DNA from: a virus | Virus record (IMG/VR): IMGVR_UViG_3300032322_001445 | Location: 1 to 22,121 of that record | Direction: 5' to 3' (one strand) | DNA length: 22,121 nucleotides | In this document: positions 9,957 to 19,811 of the stretch, piece after piece | How the letters are laid out: every line of letters starts with the position of its first letter | Position numbering within the stretch: position 1 is the first letter of the stretch | The notes under the pieces: model-generated | What the model was told of the DNA's origin: nothing | The model's database searches: none | What the model saw: the letters and a program-made list of their open reading frames with translations, nothing else | Program-made: the position numbers and the translations under genes

Positions 9957-10377
9957 TCTTTGAATTTCTCAAAGCTTTCACAGTATCTTCTAGTTTATCG
10001 TGGATTTTGTATGATATTACATCATCATGTCGGTCTACGCCCACAATGTCATCAAATTCATTAAGTTTTCCTGCAATGTCTTCGAGTACAAGCGGTAGCA
10101 TTTTCTCTTGTAGAGCAGAACTCTTTTGATTAAGAGCTTCTAGTTCGTCTTTAAGTTGTTTTGTTTCAGCTTCAACCTCGTTCTTGTAGTCGTCAAAAGG
10201 CTTTCGTAGCTCAATCATCTTTGTTTCGATTTCATTAAATCGAGCAATCTTTGGGTTAGCTTCTTTTTGAAGGTTTTGGATTTCTTCATAAAAGTATTTT
10301 ACCTTTTCATCTGTTACTGGAACAAATCGTGGGTTTGAGTAATTTTCTTCTGTTAGAAATTTTGAATCAATTTGCAT
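9943..10377 (-). CDS. Coiled-coil protein of head module
   Basis: 144 aa from ATG at 10377 (MQIDSKFLTEENYSNPRFVP). This start sits in CTATATG, like other starts here, and leaves an 11-nt overlap with the glycosyltransferase. An upstream ATG at 10413 would add 12 residues but overlaps more. Residues of about 20-100 are strongly heptad-like and charged (EIQNLQKEANPKIARFNEIETKMIELRKPFDDYKNEVEAETKQLKDEL), predicting a long coiled coil. A small mixed domain follows, with VGVDRHDDVISYKIHDKL. No enzyme motif or membrane segment is present. Lying between capsid and adaptor genes, it may be a minor head protein, a head-completion factor or an assembly chaperone. The function is unknown. Confidence 0.7.
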   Translation of the reverse strand: MQIDSKFLTEENYSNPRFVPVTDEKVKYFYEEIQNLQKEANPKIARFNEIETKMIELRKPFDDYKNEVEAETKQLKDELEALNQKSSALQEKMLPLVLEDIAGKLNEFDDIVGVDRHDDVISYKIHDKLEDTVKALRNSKKSMV

Positions 10378-11425
10378 ATAGTGTTTTAAAAGCGTCTTTC
10401 CATCTTTGGACATTATCTTTTATATTATAGTTTTTAATAACATAATCATAGGCTTTTTGTGCCATATCTTCTCTTAAATCTTTATCATTAAGAAGTCTTT
10501 GTACTTCTTCGTTCCATTTAGTGTTATCTGTGATAACTACCATGTACTTACTATCTTCTGGGTTTTGTTGGTATGGTGAATCGTTTGTATCAAATCCTTG
10601 TGCAATCACTGGTATTTTAAGCAGTGAGGCTTCTAGGAATTTAAGGTTTGATTTACAACGATTAAAGTATGAATCATTGCGAGGGATTATCACTAAATCA
10701 AGTTTGAGCTTTGATAGCGTGTGATAATAACTGTTCATGTTTACAAATGGTTGCCATTCTACGTTAGGTAGACTGTTCCAAAAGTCGTAATCTTCTTTGT
10801 AAGCTCCATTAATACTTCCTGATTGATGTTTGATACCGAATACAACTATTGTTGCGTACTCTGCTATCTTTCGTATCTCGTCTTTAATGTGGTTGTAGTC
10901 ATTGTTTGATGTTACAGAACCAATGAATCCTACTCGTGGTCTTCCTGTGTCGTTGACACGTTTAGTTTGTTCGTCAAGAGGGTCAATAAAGTTTGGAATC
11001 ATCACCACATTTTTATTGATAGCACTAAATTCTTCAGCTAGTAAAGGTGTCGAGGCGATAGCCATGTCTGCTATCTTTAATGTTTCATAAAGATAGTAGT
11101 TCATCTTCTTTGCTATTTCTCGTTGTTTGTCTGTCGGTAGCATTGAGAGTGGGACACCTTTGTCTGGTAAATAAGTGTCATCATTTTCAAACACAATCTT
11201 CTTCCCTTTTAGTTTGAGTGCCTTTGCTATTTCATAGCGTACAGGCTCATTAGGACGCTGTATAACGATTATATCTGCTTCCATAGCCTGTTGTATCAGT
11301 TGCTCTGGTTTATAGTCTTTACGGGCAAAATCAAGCACCACAGACATATCTCCATAAATACCTGGAAGATAACACCTGTAATAATAGCAACCGTCATATG
11401 CACCTGGTAGAAAAAATACTTTCAT
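10367..11425 (-). CDS. GT-B fold glycosyltransferase (GT4-like) inside head module
   Basis: 352 aa. An N-terminal Rossmann-like half (MKVFFLPGAYDGCYYYRCYLPGI; ADIIVIQRPN; KKIVFENDD; ADMAIASTPLLAEEF; NVVMIPNFID) is followed by a second half that starts RPRVGFIGSVTSNNDY. It then shows the nucleotide-sugar-binding signature CKSNLKFLEASLLKIPVIAQ (about residues 257-278), with the Glu that usually binds the sugar nucleotide. It ends with the usual crossover helix (LRNDKDLREDMAQKAYDYVIKNY-type). This is the GT4/group 1 plan. Donor and acceptor cannot be read. It sits between the major capsid protein and the adaptor, so a virion protein is a plausible acceptor; host surface glycan is the alternative. 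An extended -10 (11441..11446) ends 15 nt before its ATG and may give it a separate transcript. Confidence 0.8.
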   Translation of the reverse strand: MKVFFLPGAYDGCYYYRCYLPGIYGDMSVVLDFARKDYKPEQLIQQAMEADIIVIQRPNEPVRYEIAKALKLKGKKIVFENDDTYLPDKGVPLSMLPTDKQREIAKKMNYYLYETLKIADMAIASTPLLAEEFSAINKNVVMIPNFIDPLDEQTKRVNDTGRPRVGFIGSVTSNNDYNHIKDEIRKIAEYATIVVFGIKHQSGSINGAYKEDYDFWNSLPNVEWQPFVNMNSYYHTLSKLKLDLVIIPRNDSYFNRCKSNLKFLEASLLKIPVIAQGFDTNDSPYQQNPEDSKYMVVITDNTKWNEEVQRLLNDKDLREDMAQKAYDYVIKNYNIKDNVQRWKDAFKTLYAN

Positions 11426-11846: not shown

Positions 11847-12755
11847 TTACGCTACTGTAAGGTGAGATTTGAGCAATACTGCTGCACTATCTCGATTTTC
11901 TACTACACCGTAGCAAATATCCATAGTAACGAGTTCACCAAGATACTCATGTACATATGATTGCTGAACACGAACTCCTTCTGTACCTACGAATCCTGAA
12001 GCTGCTCGAACTGGCATTGAAAGTTTTGCCCAGTGTAGAGCGTCTTTGTGTGCAAGTACGTTCAATCGTGAACCAAGGTCAGAACCAACTGCTGGTGTAA
12101 CAATTACTGGAATACCGTAAAGCATTCGAGTTGGTTGTTTAGCTCGTGGCATTTCACTGTTAGTGTTTTGCCATAGAGTCATCTTGTCAATGTTTCCGAT
12201 TTGTCGGTAGAAAGTGTTAGGGTGGAAAATGAATGCCACATCTCCTGAGTAAATTCCTGGTACTCCTGCGTTCTCAAGTGTTGCAATAGCAGCCAAGAGG
12301 TCAGAATCAGCAATGTTAGTTGATGAAGCACCAAATGAAGTTGAGAATCCTGAGAATAGTGCTGCGATAGCATCATCAAGGTCTTGTGCAACTTCATAAG
12401 CTCCTCCCATAGCAATTTTTTCTTGCAAGTAGTAAGACTTTTTAAGCTGTGCTGCTTCTCGGTCTTCAATTACGAAAGACACTTCTTTCCAAGTTGATAC
12501 AGTCAATGTTTGTTCTGTATAAGTTGGTGAAGAGAGAGTAACTTCAGCGTTGTTAGTCTTTGTGTTTACTGAAAGTGCAGAAAGGTTTGGTGTGTGAATA
12601 AGGTATCCGCCATCTGACAATTCTTCACTTCGGTCAACGAAGAATGAAGCGAGGTCAAGATTGTATCGGAAGTAATCATTTACTTGCTGTCCCCAAACTT
12701 GTGGAATATCCACTGAGAGGTCTGCATAAGTAAATCCGTTTGTTCCTAAAGCCAT
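11847..12755 (-). CDS. Major capsid protein
   Basis: 302 aa, with the features of HK97-fold coat proteins from podo-like phages. The N-terminal segment has DIPQVWGQQVNDYFRYNLDLASFFVDRSEEL. A beta-rich E-loop-like part follows with ALSVNTKTNNAEVTLSSPTYTEQTLTVSTWKEVSFVIEDREAAQ. A spine-helix region contains QEKIAMGGAYEVAQDLDDAIAALFSGF. A P-domain/A-domain part contains VAFIFHPNTFYRQIGNIDKM, then RMLYGIPVIVTPAVG, LNVLAHKDALHWAKLSMPVRAA and YVHEYLGELVTMDICYGVVENRDSAAVLL. Position right after the scaffold gene supports it. No separate protease gene is seen nearby. It ends with tandem stops (TAATAA) and a structured element. There is no SD; the leader holds a 7-bp hairpin. Confidence 0.9.
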   Translation of the reverse strand: MALGTNGFTYADLSVDIPQVWGQQVNDYFRYNLDLASFFVDRSEELSDGGYLIHTPNLSALSVNTKTNNAEVTLSSPTYTEQTLTVSTWKEVSFVIEDREAAQLKKSYYLQEKIAMGGAYEVAQDLDDAIAALFSGFSTSFGASSTNIADSDLLAAIATLENAGVPGIYSGDVAFIFHPNTFYRQIGNIDKMTLWQNTNSEMPRAKQPTRMLYGIPVIVTPAVGSDLGSRLNVLAHKDALHWAKLSMPVRAASGFVGTEGVRVQQSYVHEYLGELVTMDICYGVVENRDSAAVLLKSHLTVA

Positions 12756-12792: not shown

Positions 12793-13276
12793 CATTTTTT
12801 GATTTCCACAGTTCCTTATGTTGTACTGGTGTAATCCCAGGAGTATTGAGAGTTATATCCTTTTTAGCTTTTCCTGAACCACTTGTCGCATTAAGTTGTG
12901 CCTTTTCGGCTTTCCTTTGTGCGTCAATAGTTTGTTCAAAAAGTTTATAAAGGGGTGTATTCAATGCTTCTGATAGAGAGACTCCTTCGAGTTGAGCAAT
13001 TTTTCGTGCCTTATCTAGTTTCTCTTTATCTTGTACGCTTGAAATAACCAAAATCTCATCTTCTGTAAGACCTGAGGTCGGTTTATCCTCTGTCTTAGGT
13101 TGAACAGTTGCTTTAGCTTCTCTCAATGTTTTGAGTTCTGCTTCTGCTTTCTCTGCTCTACGCTTTTGTGAAAGATAGCGTTCATCTTGTGTTGAGGAGT
13201 CGTTTGATTCGTTGTCTACACCTGTATCAACGTCTTGCTCTAAAGCGTCAAGATTTACTTGGTTTTCTTCTACCAT
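12785..13276 (-). CDS. Capsid scaffolding protein
   Basis: 163 aa, highly charged. An acidic N-terminus (MVEENQVNLDALEQDVDTGVDNESND) precedes a coiled coil (RYLSQKRRAEKAEAELKTLREAKATV), then a Pro/Thr linker and a conserved-looking TEDEILVISSVQDKEKLDKARKIAQLEGVSLSEALNTPLYKLFEQT. A basic C-terminal tail (SGKAKKDITLNTPGITPVQHKELWKSKNG) would contact the coat protein. Composition, size and position directly before the major capsid gene are typical of scaffold proteins. Translation starts after a structured leader of about 77 nt (pseudoknot candidate 13284..13346), so dosage of scaffold against capsid may be controlled there. Confidence 0.75.
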   Translation of the reverse strand: MVEENQVNLDALEQDVDTGVDNESNDSSTQDERYLSQKRRAEKAEAELKTLREAKATVQPKTEDKPTSGLTEDEILVISSVQDKEKLDKARKIAQLEGVSLSEALNTPLYKLFEQTIDAQRKAEKAQLNATSGSGKAKKDITLNTPGITPVQHKELWKSKNGL

Positions 13277-13283
13277 AATATCA

Positions 13284-13346
13284 AGGCGTTTTTTTCGGAC
13301 GTTAGCCTGTCGTCCCTTATGGTAATAATGTGTTTATTCGTCCGAA
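13284..13346 (-). promoter_or_regulatory. Pseudoknot-forming leader of scaffold gene (riboswitch-like)
   Basis: Minus-strand RNA can form an H-type pseudoknot. Stem 1 is GGACG / CGTCC (13315-13311 with 13301-13297). Stem 2 is AGGC / GCCT (13308-13305 with 13287-13284). Loops are 2, 3 and 9 nt, and the last is GAAAAAAAC. The pseudoknot ends 7 nt before the scaffold AUG, where a ribosome would bind. An upstream segment, TTCGGACG (13346-13339), is perfectly complementary to CGTCCGAA (13301-13294) and would break stem 1. The layout resembles compact translational riboswitches such as preQ1-I, but the preQ1 consensus is not matched. Confidence 0.55.
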
Positions 13347-13359
13347 CAACACTAAACGG

Positions 13360-13365
13360 ATTATA
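13360..13365 (-). promoter_or_regulatory. -10 promoter for scaffold/capsid block
   Basis: TATAAT overlaps the GTA TAA end of the small gene 13361..13585, just as at the adaptor promoter. There is no TG extension (CAG precedes it). A start near 13353 would give a leader of about 77 nt containing the pseudoknot. Confidence 0.5.
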
Positions 13366-13585
13366 CTGCTCTATTCTTTTGTGTTTTTGTCTCTTTCTTT
13401 GGTTCGTACTCTTGTTTAAGAGTTTCAAAAGATTGAATCAACATTTCTTTTGCGTTCTTAATACCTGTTACATCAGCTCCTTTATACATTTGTTTAAGGG
13501 CGTATGAGTCAAGTTCGGCTAAAAGAAAGTTGTAGACTGCGTTACGTGTATTTACGTCGTTATAAAACTGGTTGAGTTCCTTCAT
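13361..13585 (-). CDS. Small helical protein following portal
   Basis: 74 aa, mostly helical (MKELNQFYNDVNTRNAVYNFLLAELDSYALKQMYKG, then GIKNAKEMLIQSFETLKQEYEP) with a basic tail (KKETKTQKNRAV). It starts within the last codons of the portal gene (26-nt overlap), so it is translationally coupled to it. A short helical protein between portal and scaffold is common in phages and is generally an uncharacterised head accessory. No specific function can be assigned. Its stop codon is embedded in the -10 box of the following block. Confidence 0.75.
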   Translation of the reverse strand: MKELNQFYNDVNTRNAVYNFLLAELDSYALKQMYKGADVTGIKNAKEMLIQSFETLKQEYEPKKETKTQKNRAV

Positions 13586-15311
13586 TTGTTTCAGTTGGTA
13601 CTTGCTGTACCTCTGTTAGTTCTTGTAAGGTCTTCTCTGGTTTAGCTAGGAATACATCTGGTGAGATTCCTATCCCTGAAAGTTCTACTACCTTTGCAAA
13701 TAGTTGGGATAGTCTAGGGTCATCTAGTACTGCTGGGTTTGTTGCAACTGTGTTGATTATGTTTGTTATTGTTTCAAACATTACACCTTTGTTTATTTGT
13801 TCACCTGTTGTGATTACGTCTATTTGGAACTCTGCGTCTTTAAAGTATCCTTCTGGGATAGTAACAAATCGTTCGTTTCTTATTCCTTGATTAAGTAATT
13901 CTTTCTGACCATCAATTAGTTTTTGATAGTCTTCTGGTGTTGTTACTTTTCCATTGATTGCTTGTTCAATAACGTATTGGTTTGCTTTCTTTACAGTAAA
14001 TGCTTTATCAATCATTTTAAGTTCTTCATCTGAGAAGTCTGAGCGTAGAATATGTTCTCGTGTAAGTCCTTTCTTGATATGTGGGATAACCCATTTTACA
14101 AATAGCTCTCGCCAGAATATACCCGCTTCCTCTTTTCGATAGTTAAAGATTGATTGTGCTTCTTGATTCTGTACTGCCAATGCTCTAAATGGTGTTCCTG
14201 AAGGCATTGTTTCTCCTGTGATAGCTTCAAATGTTGAAGTTGTCTTTGAGAGTTGGTCATCCCATTGCTGGATAATGTTATCAAGTGCTGGGAGTGAGCT
14301 TGGTGTTTGATTAAGAAGTCTGAAATCATCTTCACGTCCAATCTTAAACATATGACCAAAGTCTACTTCTGAAATGTTCTCTATTTGGGACACCTCGTCT
14401 GAGTTATGTACAAACATTATTTTCGCTGCTGCTTCCATAATGTCTTGTTGTTTGAGGATTGTGTCGTTTGTAGCAAACTGTGCTTCAAATCCATCTTCTA
14501 CTACTCCAATACCTAGTCCACGTCCTGAAGCTTTAAGCCAATCAAGATACATGTAGTCTGATTCCTTTCGTTTTTCACTGTGGAGACAAACAACAGGTTC
14601 ATCTGATTGCATAAGAACAAAGTGTTTTTGTAGTGAGTATCCTTCTTCGTCCTCATCAATATATTCGTTAGGGTATATTCCTTCTATTTCAAGGACACAT
14701 ACTCGTGCAGACGTACCGTAATCTTTTCCGTTGTCTGTTGCAAATGCTTTATCGATAACGTCTTCGTTTTCTTCTACAAAGTCCCAAACATCTTTCTTGT
14801 TGTAGATGTCTATTGGGGTGAGGAAATGCTTTTCTGCTTTTGTTCCATTCATATCAGCTTGGTCAAACACTACGTTTTTCCATTCTGGTATTTGGAGTGT
14901 AAGTTCTCCATCTTTCATTACTCGTTTTACAAGTACACCACCATACTTTGCTCGTGTGTATCCAAACTCGTTAAGAGTTTTAGCAAAGTTAGTCTTCTTC
15001 ATCCAGTTTCTAATTTCTTTTGAAAAGAGCATTGACTTTACATAATGCTTTGGATTTTCTGAATATACTTGAAAATCTTTTGTATCGAAGTCAGTTGCTC
15101 GTGTTGCTACGTTTACTCTGAAATTGACTACGTTATAGAAAGGTTTGTATCGTCCTTGATTGTCTTCTTGACCGTTAATGTATCGAGAGTTTGTATAGTA
15201 TTCAATCTTTTTGATTACGTCTCGTGCATTAAAAATAAGTCCATCTATGATTTCGATAGACTCGTCTGAATAATTGTTGATGAGTTGTTGTGCTTCTGTG
15301 ATAATTGACAT
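13560..15311 (-). CDS. Portal protein
   Basis: 583 aa, the usual size for portals of this type. The N-terminal helical region (RDVIKKIEYYTNSRYINGQED) is followed by a wing region with FNVVNFRVNVATRATDFDTKDFQVYSEN-type segments. Next comes FAKTLNEFGYTRAKYGGVLVKRV and a beta region (LQIPEWKNVVFDQADMNGTKAEKHFLTPIDIYNKKDVWDFVEEN). The stem/crown part contains IIQQWDDQLSKTTSTFEAITGETMPSGTPFRALAVQNQEAQSIFNYRKEEAGIFWRELFVKWVIPHIKKG, very typical of the portal core where the clip and stem helices lie. It forms the dodecameric ring at one capsid vertex and binds terminase. It lies downstream of TerL, as expected. No SD is present; the ATG follows a terminator-like hairpin and T tract directly. Confidence 0.85.
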   Translation of the reverse strand: MSIITEAQQLINNYSDESIEIIDGLIFNARDVIKKIEYYTNSRYINGQEDNQGRYKPFYNVVNFRVNVATRATDFDTKDFQVYSENPKHYVKSMLFSKEIRNWMKKTNFAKTLNEFGYTRAKYGGVLVKRVMKDGELTLQIPEWKNVVFDQADMNGTKAEKHFLTPIDIYNKKDVWDFVEENEDVIDKAFATDNGKDYGTSARVCVLEIEGIYPNEYIDEDEEGYSLQKHFVLMQSDEPVVCLHSEKRKESDYMYLDWLKASGRGLGIGVVEDGFEAQFATNDTILKQQDIMEAAAKIMFVHNSDEVSQIENISEVDFGHMFKIGREDDFRLLNQTPSSLPALDNIIQQWDDQLSKTTSTFEAITGETMPSGTPFRALAVQNQEAQSIFNYRKEEAGIFWRELFVKWVIPHIKKGLTREHILRSDFSDEELKMIDKAFTVKKANQYVIEQAINGKVTTPEDYQKLIDGQKELLNQGIRNERFVTIPEGYFKDAEFQIDVITTGEQINKGVMFETITNIINTVATNPAVLDDPRLSQLFAKVVELSGIGISPDVFLAKPEKTLQELTEVQQVPTETNEGTQPVL

Positions 15312-15523: not shown

Positions 15524-15624
15524 AATGCTTGATTGATTATCCTGTTTTTCTTTCTATCACGCTTTTTATAGATATGCTGTCCGTACGCTACTTCGATATG
15601 TTTTTGTTCTGTATCTAAAATCAT
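15520..15624 (-). CDS. 34-aa basic micro-protein after terminase
   Basis: ATG 15624, TGA 15520-15522, 34 codons (MILDTEQKHIEVAYGQHIYK, then a basic KRDRKKNRIINQAL tail). Its start overlaps the TerL stop as ATGA, and its stop overlaps the next start as ATGA, which argues for genuine coupled translation rather than chance. The basic C-terminal half could bind nucleic acid. Unknown family. Confidence 0.6.
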   Translation of the reverse strand: MILDTEQKHIEVAYGQHIYKKRDRKKNRIINQAL

Positions 15625-16850
15625 ATGGCAGAGTTTTTATGGCGATTTCTAATAAAGTTTTGACGTTTTGCAAATTGTTCTAGTCGTTCTTCATAGTTTA
15701 CAGGTTTGAGAGAGTTGATAGCATATCGTATAGCGTCCATTGAGTGGTCATATCCTGATTCTGGTTCGTTTATTATTTTACCTGTCTTATCTTCTACCCA
15801 TAGATACTTGAGATACTCTTTGTAAATATTAAGTGAACGCTTGGTAACTGAGATTGACTTTGTTTGAACAAACTGAATACCTTGAGTAATACTATCTCGT
15901 CCTTTCTTTGCTCCGATAATGTTTACTCCATAGCTGTATATTTCGTCTATACTCTTTGGTTCAGCACTATCAGCTACTACTAGAGCTTTCTCTTGGTTAG
16001 TAAGTATATCAGCTATCTGCTTATTGCTTAGTCCTTTACTGAAAGTTATTTCATCTAGGATATATCCGTTGTTATATTCGTAGATTGCAACAATAGCTGT
16101 TGGGTCATTGGTATATCCAAAGTCTAATCCATATCTTACTAATCGTGCTTGGTGAGGTATTTCTTCTATGAAATCCCAGTTAGTATATATCTTACGTTCA
16201 AGAGATGAAGGCTCTCCTAGCCATTTATGCTTATACAGTGATGGTCGCTTCTCTTTGTCATCATTCATTTCATTGAAGATAACATCTGGCATCCATCCGT
16301 ATTTCATTGCTACGTCATAATTGACGTTTATCTTGAGTGTATTAGGTCTTCCCTCTACTACAAGTCTTTGGTGTACAGGGTCATCTTCATTTAATCGGTT
16401 GTATGTATAGATAATCTGTGAGCCATCCTTTCGGACTGTTGGTGTGAGAATATCAATACTTTCCTTTGAGATTGTTTGAGCTTCTTCTATCCACGCAATG
16501 TCTATACCTTCGATAGATTTAATTGATTGAGAGTTATTACGAAGTCCTTTGAATATAAAGTCTGAGCCAGTAATTGTATTTATGATTGAGTTCTCTGTTA
16601 CTTTGAAATCTCTGAGGTTATATTCTTCAATTAAGTCTTTAAGTAGCTGGTGAGATGAATCTGCTATCGAGCTTTGAAATTCTCGTCCACATAATACTCT
16701 TATCTTTTCTTCTCTTGCTCGAATAAGTAGAACTCTTGCTACTGTGTGAGACTTTAATGAGTATCTTCCTCCCCATACTGCTGCTTCTCGCCAATCCCTA
16801 TCAAGTAGTCTTACAAACTCAACAGGTATATTCATTTCTTTATTTGCCAT
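15621..16850 (-). CDS. terL: Terminase large subunit (PBSX-type)
   Basis: 409 aa, full length. The ATPase half contains Walker A-like GGRYSLKS (27-34), an adenine-motif-like segment CGREFQSSIADS, and Walker B IAWIEEAQ (118-125) with catalytic Glu. The coupling motif is IYTYNRLNEDDP (about 147-158). The nuclease half shows the RNase H-like acidic triad: Asp243 in YGLDFGYTNDP, Asp294 in VVADSAEPKS and Asp372 in GYDHSMDAIRYAI. It cuts the genome concatemer and pumps DNA into the prohead through the portal. It follows TerS by 5 nt. The Walker A loop has Leu-Lys-Ser instead of Gly-Lys-Ser/Thr, a variant seen in this family. Confidence 0.93.
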   Translation of the reverse strand: MANKEMNIPVEFVRLLDRDWREAAVWGGRYSLKSHTVARVLLIRAREEKIRVLCGREFQSSIADSSHQLLKDLIEEYNLRDFKVTENSIINTITGSDFIFKGLRNNSQSIKSIEGIDIAWIEEAQTISKESIDILTPTVRKDGSQIIYTYNRLNEDDPVHQRLVVEGRPNTLKINVNYDVAMKYGWMPDVIFNEMNDDKEKRPSLYKHKWLGEPSSLERKIYTNWDFIEEIPHQARLVRYGLDFGYTNDPTAIVAIYEYNNGYILDEITFSKGLSNKQIADILTNQEKALVVADSAEPKSIDEIYSYGVNIIGAKKGRDSITQGIQFVQTKSISVTKRSLNIYKEYLKYLWVEDKTGKIINEPESGYDHSMDAIRYAINSLKPVNYEERLEQFAKRQNFIRNRHKNSAI

Positions 16851-18675: not shown

Positions 18676-18853
18676 TGAGCAAAAACCTAAACTTTTTAAT
18701 ATTCTTTTTTTTCTTAAAAGTTATCTCTCTCCATTCTGGTTGTTTACCATACTTCGTCGGTACGTATTCAACAATATCAATTGTAACAATTCCATCTTCT
18801 ATTTGGATTCGTGCATTATATCCTATGTTATGTATGGTCTTGGTATTGTCCAT
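18659..18853 (-). CDS. 64-aa unknown in glycan cassette
   Basis: Start chosen at ATG 18853 (MDNTKTIHNIGYNARIQIED), which leaves a 31-nt overlap with the deacetylase; the alternative ATG at 18913 would overlap by 91 nt. It is beta-rich (ARIQIEDGIVTIDIVEYVP, EWREITF) with a basic patch (KKKKNIKKFRFLLNEHN) near the C-terminus that could bind nucleic acid or an acidic glycan. Unknown family. Confidence 0.55.
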   Translation of the reverse strand: MDNTKTIHNIGYNARIQIEDGIVTIDIVEYVPTKYGKQPEWREITFKKKKNIKKFRFLLNEHNA

Positions 18854-19320
18854 TGTGTTCCGTCTGTTGCTATTACTGAATAAGCTTTCTCGTATCCACA
18901 TGCTTTTACGCATTCAATCACAAGGTCGTTATATCTTCCGTACGGATACGCAAATGTTTTCATAGGAAATGGAGGCATAACTTCTTTCATAATTTCCTCT
19001 CGTGATAGTTTTGTAAGGTCAGGGTGTGTCTTTGTGTGGTAGCCTAGTTCAAAGTCATACTTTTCACATAGTTCTTTGATTTGTTCTAATGTACAGTATT
19101 TTTCTAGCTTTGGGACGTGTGCCAGGTCAAAGGTGTTGTCTTTTCCTAGCGTGTCGTAGACAAAGAACATTATTCCTTTCTTTCCTACTAGTACGTCTTG
19201 GTTTTCGTATACGTTTAAATATATTCCGTCCCAACCTATCTCATCTTGGCAATCTAGTATTTGTTGGCGTGTGTTGTAGTTAGGGTGTTTTATATCTCCG
19301 ATATTGTGAGCTAATTTCAT
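18823..19320 (-). CDS. NodB-type polysaccharide deacetylase, atypical motif 1
   Basis: 165 aa, shorter than the usual 190-230. Motif 2 is intact: GYHTKTHPDLTKLSREEI with His95 and His99, the metal ligands. Motif 3 is AYPYGRYND (124-132), the active-site groove. The segment where TFDDG is expected reads GWDGIYLNVYENQDVL. It keeps one Asp (31, the likely metal ligand) but has Trp30 in place of the catalytic-base Asp. This may mark a variant subfamily or a changed activity. Family role: removal of N- or O-acetyl groups from sugar polymers using a divalent metal. No signal peptide, so it works in the cytoplasm, unlike cell-wall deacetylases. ATGA overlap couples it to the methyltransferase upstream. 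Confidence 0.75.
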   Translation of the reverse strand: MKLAHNIGDIKHPNYNTRQQILDCQDEIGWDGIYLNVYENQDVLVGKKGIMFFVYDTLGKDNTFDLAHVPKLEKYCTLEQIKELCEKYDFELGYHTKTHPDLTKLSREEIMKEVMPPFPMKTFAYPYGRYNDLVIECVKACGYEKAYSVIATDGTQWTIPRPYIT

Positions 19321-19811
19321 TTTCTTTTAAATACTCGTAGTACATGAGTATATTCTCTATATGGATAAGATTCTATGTGTATTTGTTCTAGTTCATGGCT
19401 ATGGATTGGTATTTCCCATGATTCTATGTGCACAGTTAGTAGGATTCCTCCTTTTTTAAGTGTTCTGAGTGCAAACTCTTGCATTTCTTCATAGTCGTAT
19501 TGTTGGTAAAATACACCTGTGGCTACAACTAAGTCAAATGTAAGTGTTGTTTGAAACGATACTCTTTCAAATTCTTCTGGTTGTCGGCTTGAAGCTAAAT
19601 CTGAAATTTCTTGAAAGAAAATCTTTTCTGCTGGTAAAACACGGGTTATAAATCCTTCTCCCGCCCCAATGTCTAGTGCTGTTTTAAATTGTCCATATGG
19701 TTTAAGAACATTAAGTATCTTTTGTCTGCGTTTCTTGTCTTCTGGGTTATTAAAGTATCCCCACTGGTCGGGAGTTTGATACCAAATCTCTAGTTCAGAT
19801 TTAGTTTGCAT
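19317..19811 (-). CDS. SAM-dependent methyltransferase (NodS-like)
   Basis: 164 aa class I methyltransferase. Motif I is ALDIGAGEGFITRVLP (45-60), followed by a short acidic strand (KIFFQEISDLA). FDLVVATGVFYQQYDYEEM (92-110) corresponds to the motif IV region, and LRTLKKGGILLTVHIESW (115-132) to the post-motif strand. The N-terminal segment (EIWYQTPDQWGYFNNPEDKKRRQKIL) and overall size resemble NodS-like and other small-molecule methyltransferases rather than DNA ones. Likely substrate: a sugar or amino-sugar acted on together with the deacetylase and glycosyltransferase downstream. First gene of the cassette. A TATAAT box ends 6 nt before the ATG, predicting a leaderless mRNA. Confidence 0.78.
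   Translation of the reverse strand: MQTKSELEIWYQTPDQWGYFNNPEDKKRRQKILNVLKPYGQFKTALDIGAGEGFITRVLPAEKIFFQEISDLASSRQPEEFERVSFQTTLTFDLVVATGVFYQQYDYEEMQEFALRTLKKGGILLTVHIESWEIPIHSHELEQIHIESYPYREYTHVLRVFKRK

Follow-up and report, generated by a model that had tools for sequence, protein, structure and literature searches.

In one group of uncultivated tailed phages, the RNA leader of a scaffold-like gene constitutes a conserved cis-acting tandem pseudoknot element, as shown here by comparison of nucleotide sequences. We estimate the probability that the tandem element is real at about 95%, and very probably it is a control element. The window, i.e., the whole stretch of 22,121 bases analysed, derives from a virus record, and its structural genes lie on the minus strand (Table 1).

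Table 1. Features of the scaffold-capsid region and of the leader RNA (S1, S2: helices; PK: pseudoknot)
Feature	Position	Strand	Remarks
Terminase	15621-16850	-
Portal-like ORF	13560-15311	-
74-aa helical protein ORF	13361-13585	-	directly upstream of leader, in 85/94 loci; stop at 13361 bounds the leader
Scaffold-like gene leader RNA	13277-13360	-	84 nt, tandem H-type pseudoknots PK1 and PK2
PK1	13330-13360	-	S1 UCCG (13357-13360)/CGGA (13341-13344)
PK1 S2	13348-13352/13330-13334	-	GUGUU/AACAC
PK1 loops		-	loop 1 UUUA, loop 2 GUU, loop 3 CGAAUA
Segment complementary to 13294-13301	13339-13346	-	UUCGGACG, 8 nt, the 'anti' segment of the initial annotation
Linker PK1-PK2	13316-13329	-	AUUAUUACCAUAAG, 14 nt
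PK2	13284-13315	-	5-bp S1 GGACG (13311-13315)/CGUCC (13297-13301)
PK2 S2	13305-13308/13284-13287	-	4 bp, AGGC/GCCU
PK2 loops		-	loop 1 AC, loop 2 UAA, A-rich 9-nt loop 3 GAAAAAAAC (13288-13296)
Spacer to AUG	13277-13283	-	UGAUAUU, 7 nt, without Shine-Dalgarno
Scaffold-like protein, 163 aa	12785-13276	-	AUG at 13276 bounds the leader; homologue downstream of 94/94 leaders
Major capsid protein	11847-12755	-	phrog_267

The leader in the window and its surroundings

The order portal-scaffold-capsid is the one annotated in Pf-WMP3, and the names scaffold and portal are based on position and homology, with no PHROG or Pfam match. The scaffold-like protein, itself without match to PHROG or Pfam, has a very acidic N-terminus, and its structural model (pLDDT 70.2) gave no PDB match at E ≤ 0.001. 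The model of the 74-aa protein is helical (pLDDT 88.5) and gave no PDB match at the same threshold; the protein was considered as a candidate regulator. Elsewhere in the window, two adjacent long ORFs on the minus strand (3-1145 and 1159-2829) have alike N-termini (MIDKKL..LIELA) and are apparently duplicated tail or fibre genes. Cargo-like genes at 10367-11425, 18823-19320 and 19317-19811 (minus strand) match glycosyltransferase, polysaccharide deacetylase and methyltransferase families. In relatives, inserted ORFs recur in the interval between the scaffold and capsid genes (L070, L080, L081, L115, L300, L313, L030, L038), some of them with intron-like flanks, and judged by their motifs they resemble HNH or LAGLIDADG homing endonucleases.

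The initial annotation had described a compact H-type pseudoknot with stems of 5 and 4 bp and an A-rich third loop of 9 nt beside the start codon, ending 7 nt from the AUG. All these parts are present and the knot, here PK2, is real; a further H-type pseudoknot (PK1), formed by the first half of the leader, had been missed. Stacking energies in the descriptor search are -18.5 kcal/mol for PK2 and -14.6 kcal/mol for PK1. The two-knot score of the leader was reached by none of 2000 dinucleotide shuffles, and among the 84-nt segments of the same (minus) strand (n = 2204) the leader alone reaches it. A chance structure within an A-rich intergenic leader would be in line with the ordinary nested folding energy (z -0.44) and with the 7 of 2000 shuffles that give a single knot this strong, but the pair statistic stands against it and it is already contradicted by the covariation of both helices in relatives described below, so that we consider it extremely improbable. 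The nested folding is misleading here because it displays a hairpin found in the window only.

Covariation and distribution among relatives

Capsid searches, from which 80 of 114 and then 80 of 281 relatives were taken for leader collection, resulted in 94 non-redundant leaders of homologous scaffold genes, the window included. For the first set, L070, L080, L081, L115 and L116 were left out (inserts or start at an edge) and a similarity filter reduced 76 leaders to 63; the second set contains 31. Also left out were loci in which the upstream DNA was too short or no scaffold ORF was taken (L003, L017, L030, L039, L062, L117, L298) and two with insert ORFs (L300, L313, before the count of 94); the leader of L007 was cut 3 nt late.

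At this site the relatives often have two and sometimes three H-type knots, which fall into several sequence types. The commonest, type B, has the layout G[C/G]N - 1-3 nt - S2 - 0-4 nt - N[C/G]C - AUAAA-like - S2' and usually occurs twice; type A follows xGG-UUA-S2-CCx-nn-CAAAA-S2', and type C has a GAGG-like S1, a loop 1 with UUA, an S2 of 6-7 bp and a loop 3 with UAAA. One leader (L280) combines one type C with two type B knots, and in some (L098, L260, L283) a third knot lies upstream. The A-rich loop is the sole feature common to all knot types.

For S2 of type B, 87 places in 63 leaders were anchored by the loop-3 sequence alone, and with a helix cut-off of -3.5 kcal/mol the helix formed at 69 of them, compared to a mean of 20.1 and a maximum of 35 upon swapping of the downstream halves (1000 trials). 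The complement of the S1 triplet (AGC 24, GGC 19, UGC 16, UCC 8, ACC 2, CGC 1) was present in 70 of the 77 elements with good S2, whereas 2000 permutations gave a mean of 18.4 and at most 30. The anchors for both helices were written after the motif had been seen, S1 was tested only in elements with good S2, and both permutation tests are independent of the layout choice made for the 35-row alignment. In this alignment 94.3% of 245 cells are paired versus 27-39% when slid, and two-sided changes number 63 versus 19.7 in shuffles, values that lean to structure because its rows (35 of 87) were picked by layout; with one fixed layout and no picking, each of the eight pairs is formed by between 35 and 75 of all 87 windows. 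A strict type-B descriptor found at least two elements in 24 of the 63 leaders and in no leader of any of 200 shuffled sets. For type A, in which the anchor fixes GG/CC in S1 and only S2 is tested, S2 formed in 14 of 15 cases (permuted mean 4.9, maximum 11). For type C, with a hand-picked S1 list that includes the window's own arm, all 8 cases formed it (permuted mean 4.3, maximum 8), the mean energy being unreached in 2000 permutations. The H-type pseudoknot leader is thus supported by compensatory change in both helices of type B and in S2 of types A and C. The arms covary in the homologous leaders; a lack of covariation would, according to the initial annotation, have spoken against its knot.

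The closest relatives, which form a clade with the window (L001, L002, L004; capsid 75-82% identical), have a knot at the matching place with arms quite unlike the window's, and the counterparts of PK1 have other arms, too. The arms in these three are CGG/CCG + CAACU/AGUUG, CGG/CCG + CAAUU/AAUUG and CUGG/CCAG + AUGCUU/AAGUAU; taken singly the knots are weak, as 25, 98 and 2 of 200 shuffles reach the same score. On the capsid tree the knot type changes 25 times, with 3 as the minimum possible, and type B alone requires at least 11 forced changes.

In the final 90 nt before the AUG, the two-knot score reaches p ≤ 0.05 in 61 of the 94 leaders (47/63 in the first set, 14/31 in the second), compared with 7 of the 100 regions before other ORFs that served as controls, and 33 of the 94 fall short of this threshold. 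No knot was scored in these 90 nt in L071, L074, L075, L077, L276 and L292; in L077 a knot lies farther out, at -94, in L276 a knot with a zero-length first loop, outside the limits of the descriptor, is seen by eye, and a different type of hairpin seems to be present in L071, L074 and L075. In L301 the final 90 nt contain two hairpins with loops matching each other's downstream strand (UGAU of loop 1 with AUCA after hairpin 2, UGCU of loop 2 with AGCA after hairpin 1), an arrangement suggestive of interlaced knots. Upstream of the two knots, about 65-105 nt before the AUG, extra hairpins are seen in L019, L022, L025, L026, L038 and L099, the arms of which appear to covary (e.g., CAGCUC/GAGCUG and GUGGC/GCCAC).

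Nearly all strong matches of a type B covariance model in 20 whole phage records are at the scaffold leader; one weaker match (E 0.0019) lies away from it in the L057 contig, and matches with E above 0.04 look like chance. In 420 kb, type-B knots were found 87 times on the gene strand versus 14 times on the other. Two type-B knots are present in 35 of the 94 leaders; PK2 ends 7-8 nt from the AUG in 26 of these 35, and the gap between the knots is 5-6 nt in 20 of them (window: 14 nt). Loop 3 of the type-B pairs is 64% A versus 36% in the leaders. In 32 relatives, 16 of 208 ORFs are preceded by a loose Shine-Dalgarno match (summed over rows); such sequences are nearly absent before genes in the window, too. 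A TATAAT-like hexamer lies 79-83 nt before the scaffold AUG, at near-constant spacing and just 5' of the first knot, in a subset of leaders (L005, L008, L009, L010, L012, L015, L049 and others), as if transcription began right at PK1 in these. A -10 promoter is not claimed for the window itself: TATAAT occurs 15 times on that strand with about 19 expected, i.e., at chance frequency.

With regard to wider spread, a DNA pattern gave at least 120 matches in viral contigs, of which 80 loci were taken. A knot of some kind lies at the pattern in 9 of these 80, and 2 of the 9 are tandem leaders, namely L182 (identical to the L020 contig) and L173, which is new and has a scaffold homologue just downstream; the other loci look like chance. 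In bacterial genomes, none of 52 pattern-matching stretches was confirmed as a capsid homologue. Among cultured phages, cyanophage capsids are 29-35% identical in an alignment that covers only about 40% of the query, and in the two cultured relatives examined, Pf-WMP3 and CHP58, the scaffold gene directly follows the portal gene, with no such leader and no element.

Candidate functions of the element

The explanation we favour, at somewhat below even odds, is a translational operator that is bound by a phage protein and acts on an mRNA without Shine-Dalgarno sequence. The 30S subunit would load on unstructured RNA around the AUG, a need that would arise because Shine-Dalgarno sequences are rarely used in these phages, and the end of PK2, 7-8 nt before the AUG, would fall within the usual initiation footprint. 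A knot-binding phage protein would keep the knots closed and lower scaffold synthesis, and in its absence the ribosome would melt PK2 and translation would proceed; this protein may be the unassembled scaffold or a different product of the capsid region. The A-rich third loop, placed in the minor groove of S1, could serve as the common recognition feature. This operator reading is supported by the near-constant spacing from knot to AUG and from knot to knot in type-B pairs, by the best model matches in whole records being the scaffold leader and by the near absence of Shine-Dalgarno sequences, with T4 gene 32 and P22 scaffold control (see below) as precedents; the leader carries a pseudoknot, as it would in an autogenous operator of the T4 gp32 type. 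Against it stand the 33 leaders short of p ≤ 0.05 and the six without a scored knot, the frequent swapping of types on the capsid tree with the A-rich loop as their sole common feature, the free folding, which by a rough estimate slightly favours a nested hairpin, and the binding protein, so far only putative: the scaffold protein has the acidic N-terminus described above and a model without significant PDB match. More tentatively, and on the doubtful side, the pair of pseudoknots with which the scaffold-capsid message begins may measure free scaffold (or capsid) protein and represent a new class of phage RNA sensor. Such a sensor would link procapsid assembly to scaffold synthesis, with the fold kept and sequence types swapped in place.

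A structural role is the main and a serious rival of the operator, which we consider possible if rather unlikely. Standing close to the 5' end of the mRNA for scaffold and capsid, the knots would stop a 5'-3' exonuclease (RNase J, for example) or in some other way stabilise a highly used message, with no ligand involved. The topology is kept while sequence types swap, and in a subset of leaders the -10-like hexamer is placed just 5' of PK1. The elements are in tandem as in flaviviral exonuclease-resistant RNAs, and the available part of PMC5760640 reports that one of these stops bacterial RNase J1 in vitro. The likeness to flaviviral xrRNA1/2, as far as covered by that part of the source, is the tandem arrangement of knotted elements (PMC5760640); in contrast to the H-type knots found here, the known resistant RNAs have another topology, a ring fold, and reside in the 3' UTR of RNA viruses, and resistance is shown there and hypothetical here. 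Protection would moreover not need the strict spacing between PK2 and AUG, and TATAAT in the window is at chance frequency. As the types swap frequently on the capsid tree, a structural role fits as well as a specific operator.

A ribosome-recruiting or ribosome-positioning element that raises initiation on an mRNA without Shine-Dalgarno sequence appears unlikely. It would account for the scarcity of Shine-Dalgarno sequences and for the fixed distance to the AUG, and phage scaffold protein is required in large amounts; however, other genes of the same phages that lack a Shine-Dalgarno sequence have no type-B element, and structure close to the AUG usually reduces initiation.

Even less probable is a metabolite riboswitch, which would be of a new class. 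The initial annotation had proposed two mutually exclusive folds that sense a metabolite or a phage protein, with an upstream 8-nt segment opening the knot; a phage protein as the partner is the operator reading favoured above. The segment exists: UUCGGACG is fully complementary to CGUCCGAA, i.e., to an arm and its flank, and their pairing is the nested minimum-energy fold. Part of UUCGGACG is the 3' arm of S1 in PK1, so that it overlaps this knot. The alternative fold is not conserved, as the complement between the halves averages 4.85 nt versus 4.97 nt for leaders paired at random, and the only complement of 8 nt in 94 leaders is the window's. If only the RNA of the window is considered, a rough estimate puts the nested fold (-15.0 kcal/mol) and the two knots (about -13.9 kcal/mol) close in energy, wherefore bistability of the window RNA is possible; selection kept something else. 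In preQ1-I and SAM-II riboswitches (Rfam numbers presumably RF00522 and RF00521) a compact H-type knot lies beside the start and its third loop is A-rich, a likeness that speaks for a riboswitch, as does the tandem arrangement. In contrast, the gene downstream is a phage scaffold gene, and Rfam searches at gathering score (window and 15 relatives) and at E ≤ 10 (window leader and the type-B leader L022) gave nothing convincing, preQ1-I and SAM-II being absent from the matches of both. The sequences of arms and loops are free to vary, and across the types there is no evident unpaired pocket with strong conservation; in the 20 phage records the best matches are found only before one structural gene.

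A transcription antitermination RNA acting on RNA polymerase like the put sites of phage HK022 would suit the position, in the gene order, where the scaffold-capsid part begins, and the pairing of structured units, but a spacing tied to the AUG is not needed for an action on polymerase and put sites are, to our knowledge, not pseudoknots, which makes this highly unlikely.

Known phage leaders and biological meaning

The scaffold protein of phage P22 is autoregulated, its amount being under post-transcriptional control, and a translational operator in the leaders described here would share this control of scaffold amount; we know of no pseudoknot operator in the P22 case, and no text on P22 scaffold autoregulation was found in the literature searched. 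The leader of T4 gene 32 contains a pseudoknot of ~28 nt that is part of an autogenous operator and acts as nucleation site of the autogenous repressor, and according to the available part of the source its letters drift while the fold stays (PMC535899; for context, the accessible part of a T4 review, PMC3014915). T4 and RB69 gene 32 thus resemble the present case as phage mRNA leaders with a knot upstream of the AUG and a fold kept in diverged sequences. They differ in that the single knot of T4 gene 32 is separated from the AUG by a Shine-Dalgarno sequence and more than 40 nt of RNA containing UUAAA/UAAA, as far as described in that part of PMC535899, whereas here two or three knots, the last of them 7-8 nt from the AUG, precede a structural gene without Shine-Dalgarno sequence and the binder is putative. 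Pseudoknot operators in phage leaders are already known, and new here are the tandem arrangement, the minimal size, the structural gene and the start without Shine-Dalgarno sequence; no description of such leaders was found in the literature searched.

The retention of the fold at one site in dozens of phages, despite near-complete turnover of the letters, is strong evidence of function, and the leaders constitute a clean collection of naturally covarying H-type pseudoknots of minimal size (about 24 nt). If the element is an operator, the balance of scaffold and capsid protein in phages, an old question, can be addressed experimentally in the RNA. A structural 5' element, on the other hand, would show how phages nearly without Shine-Dalgarno sequences protect or position highly used messages.
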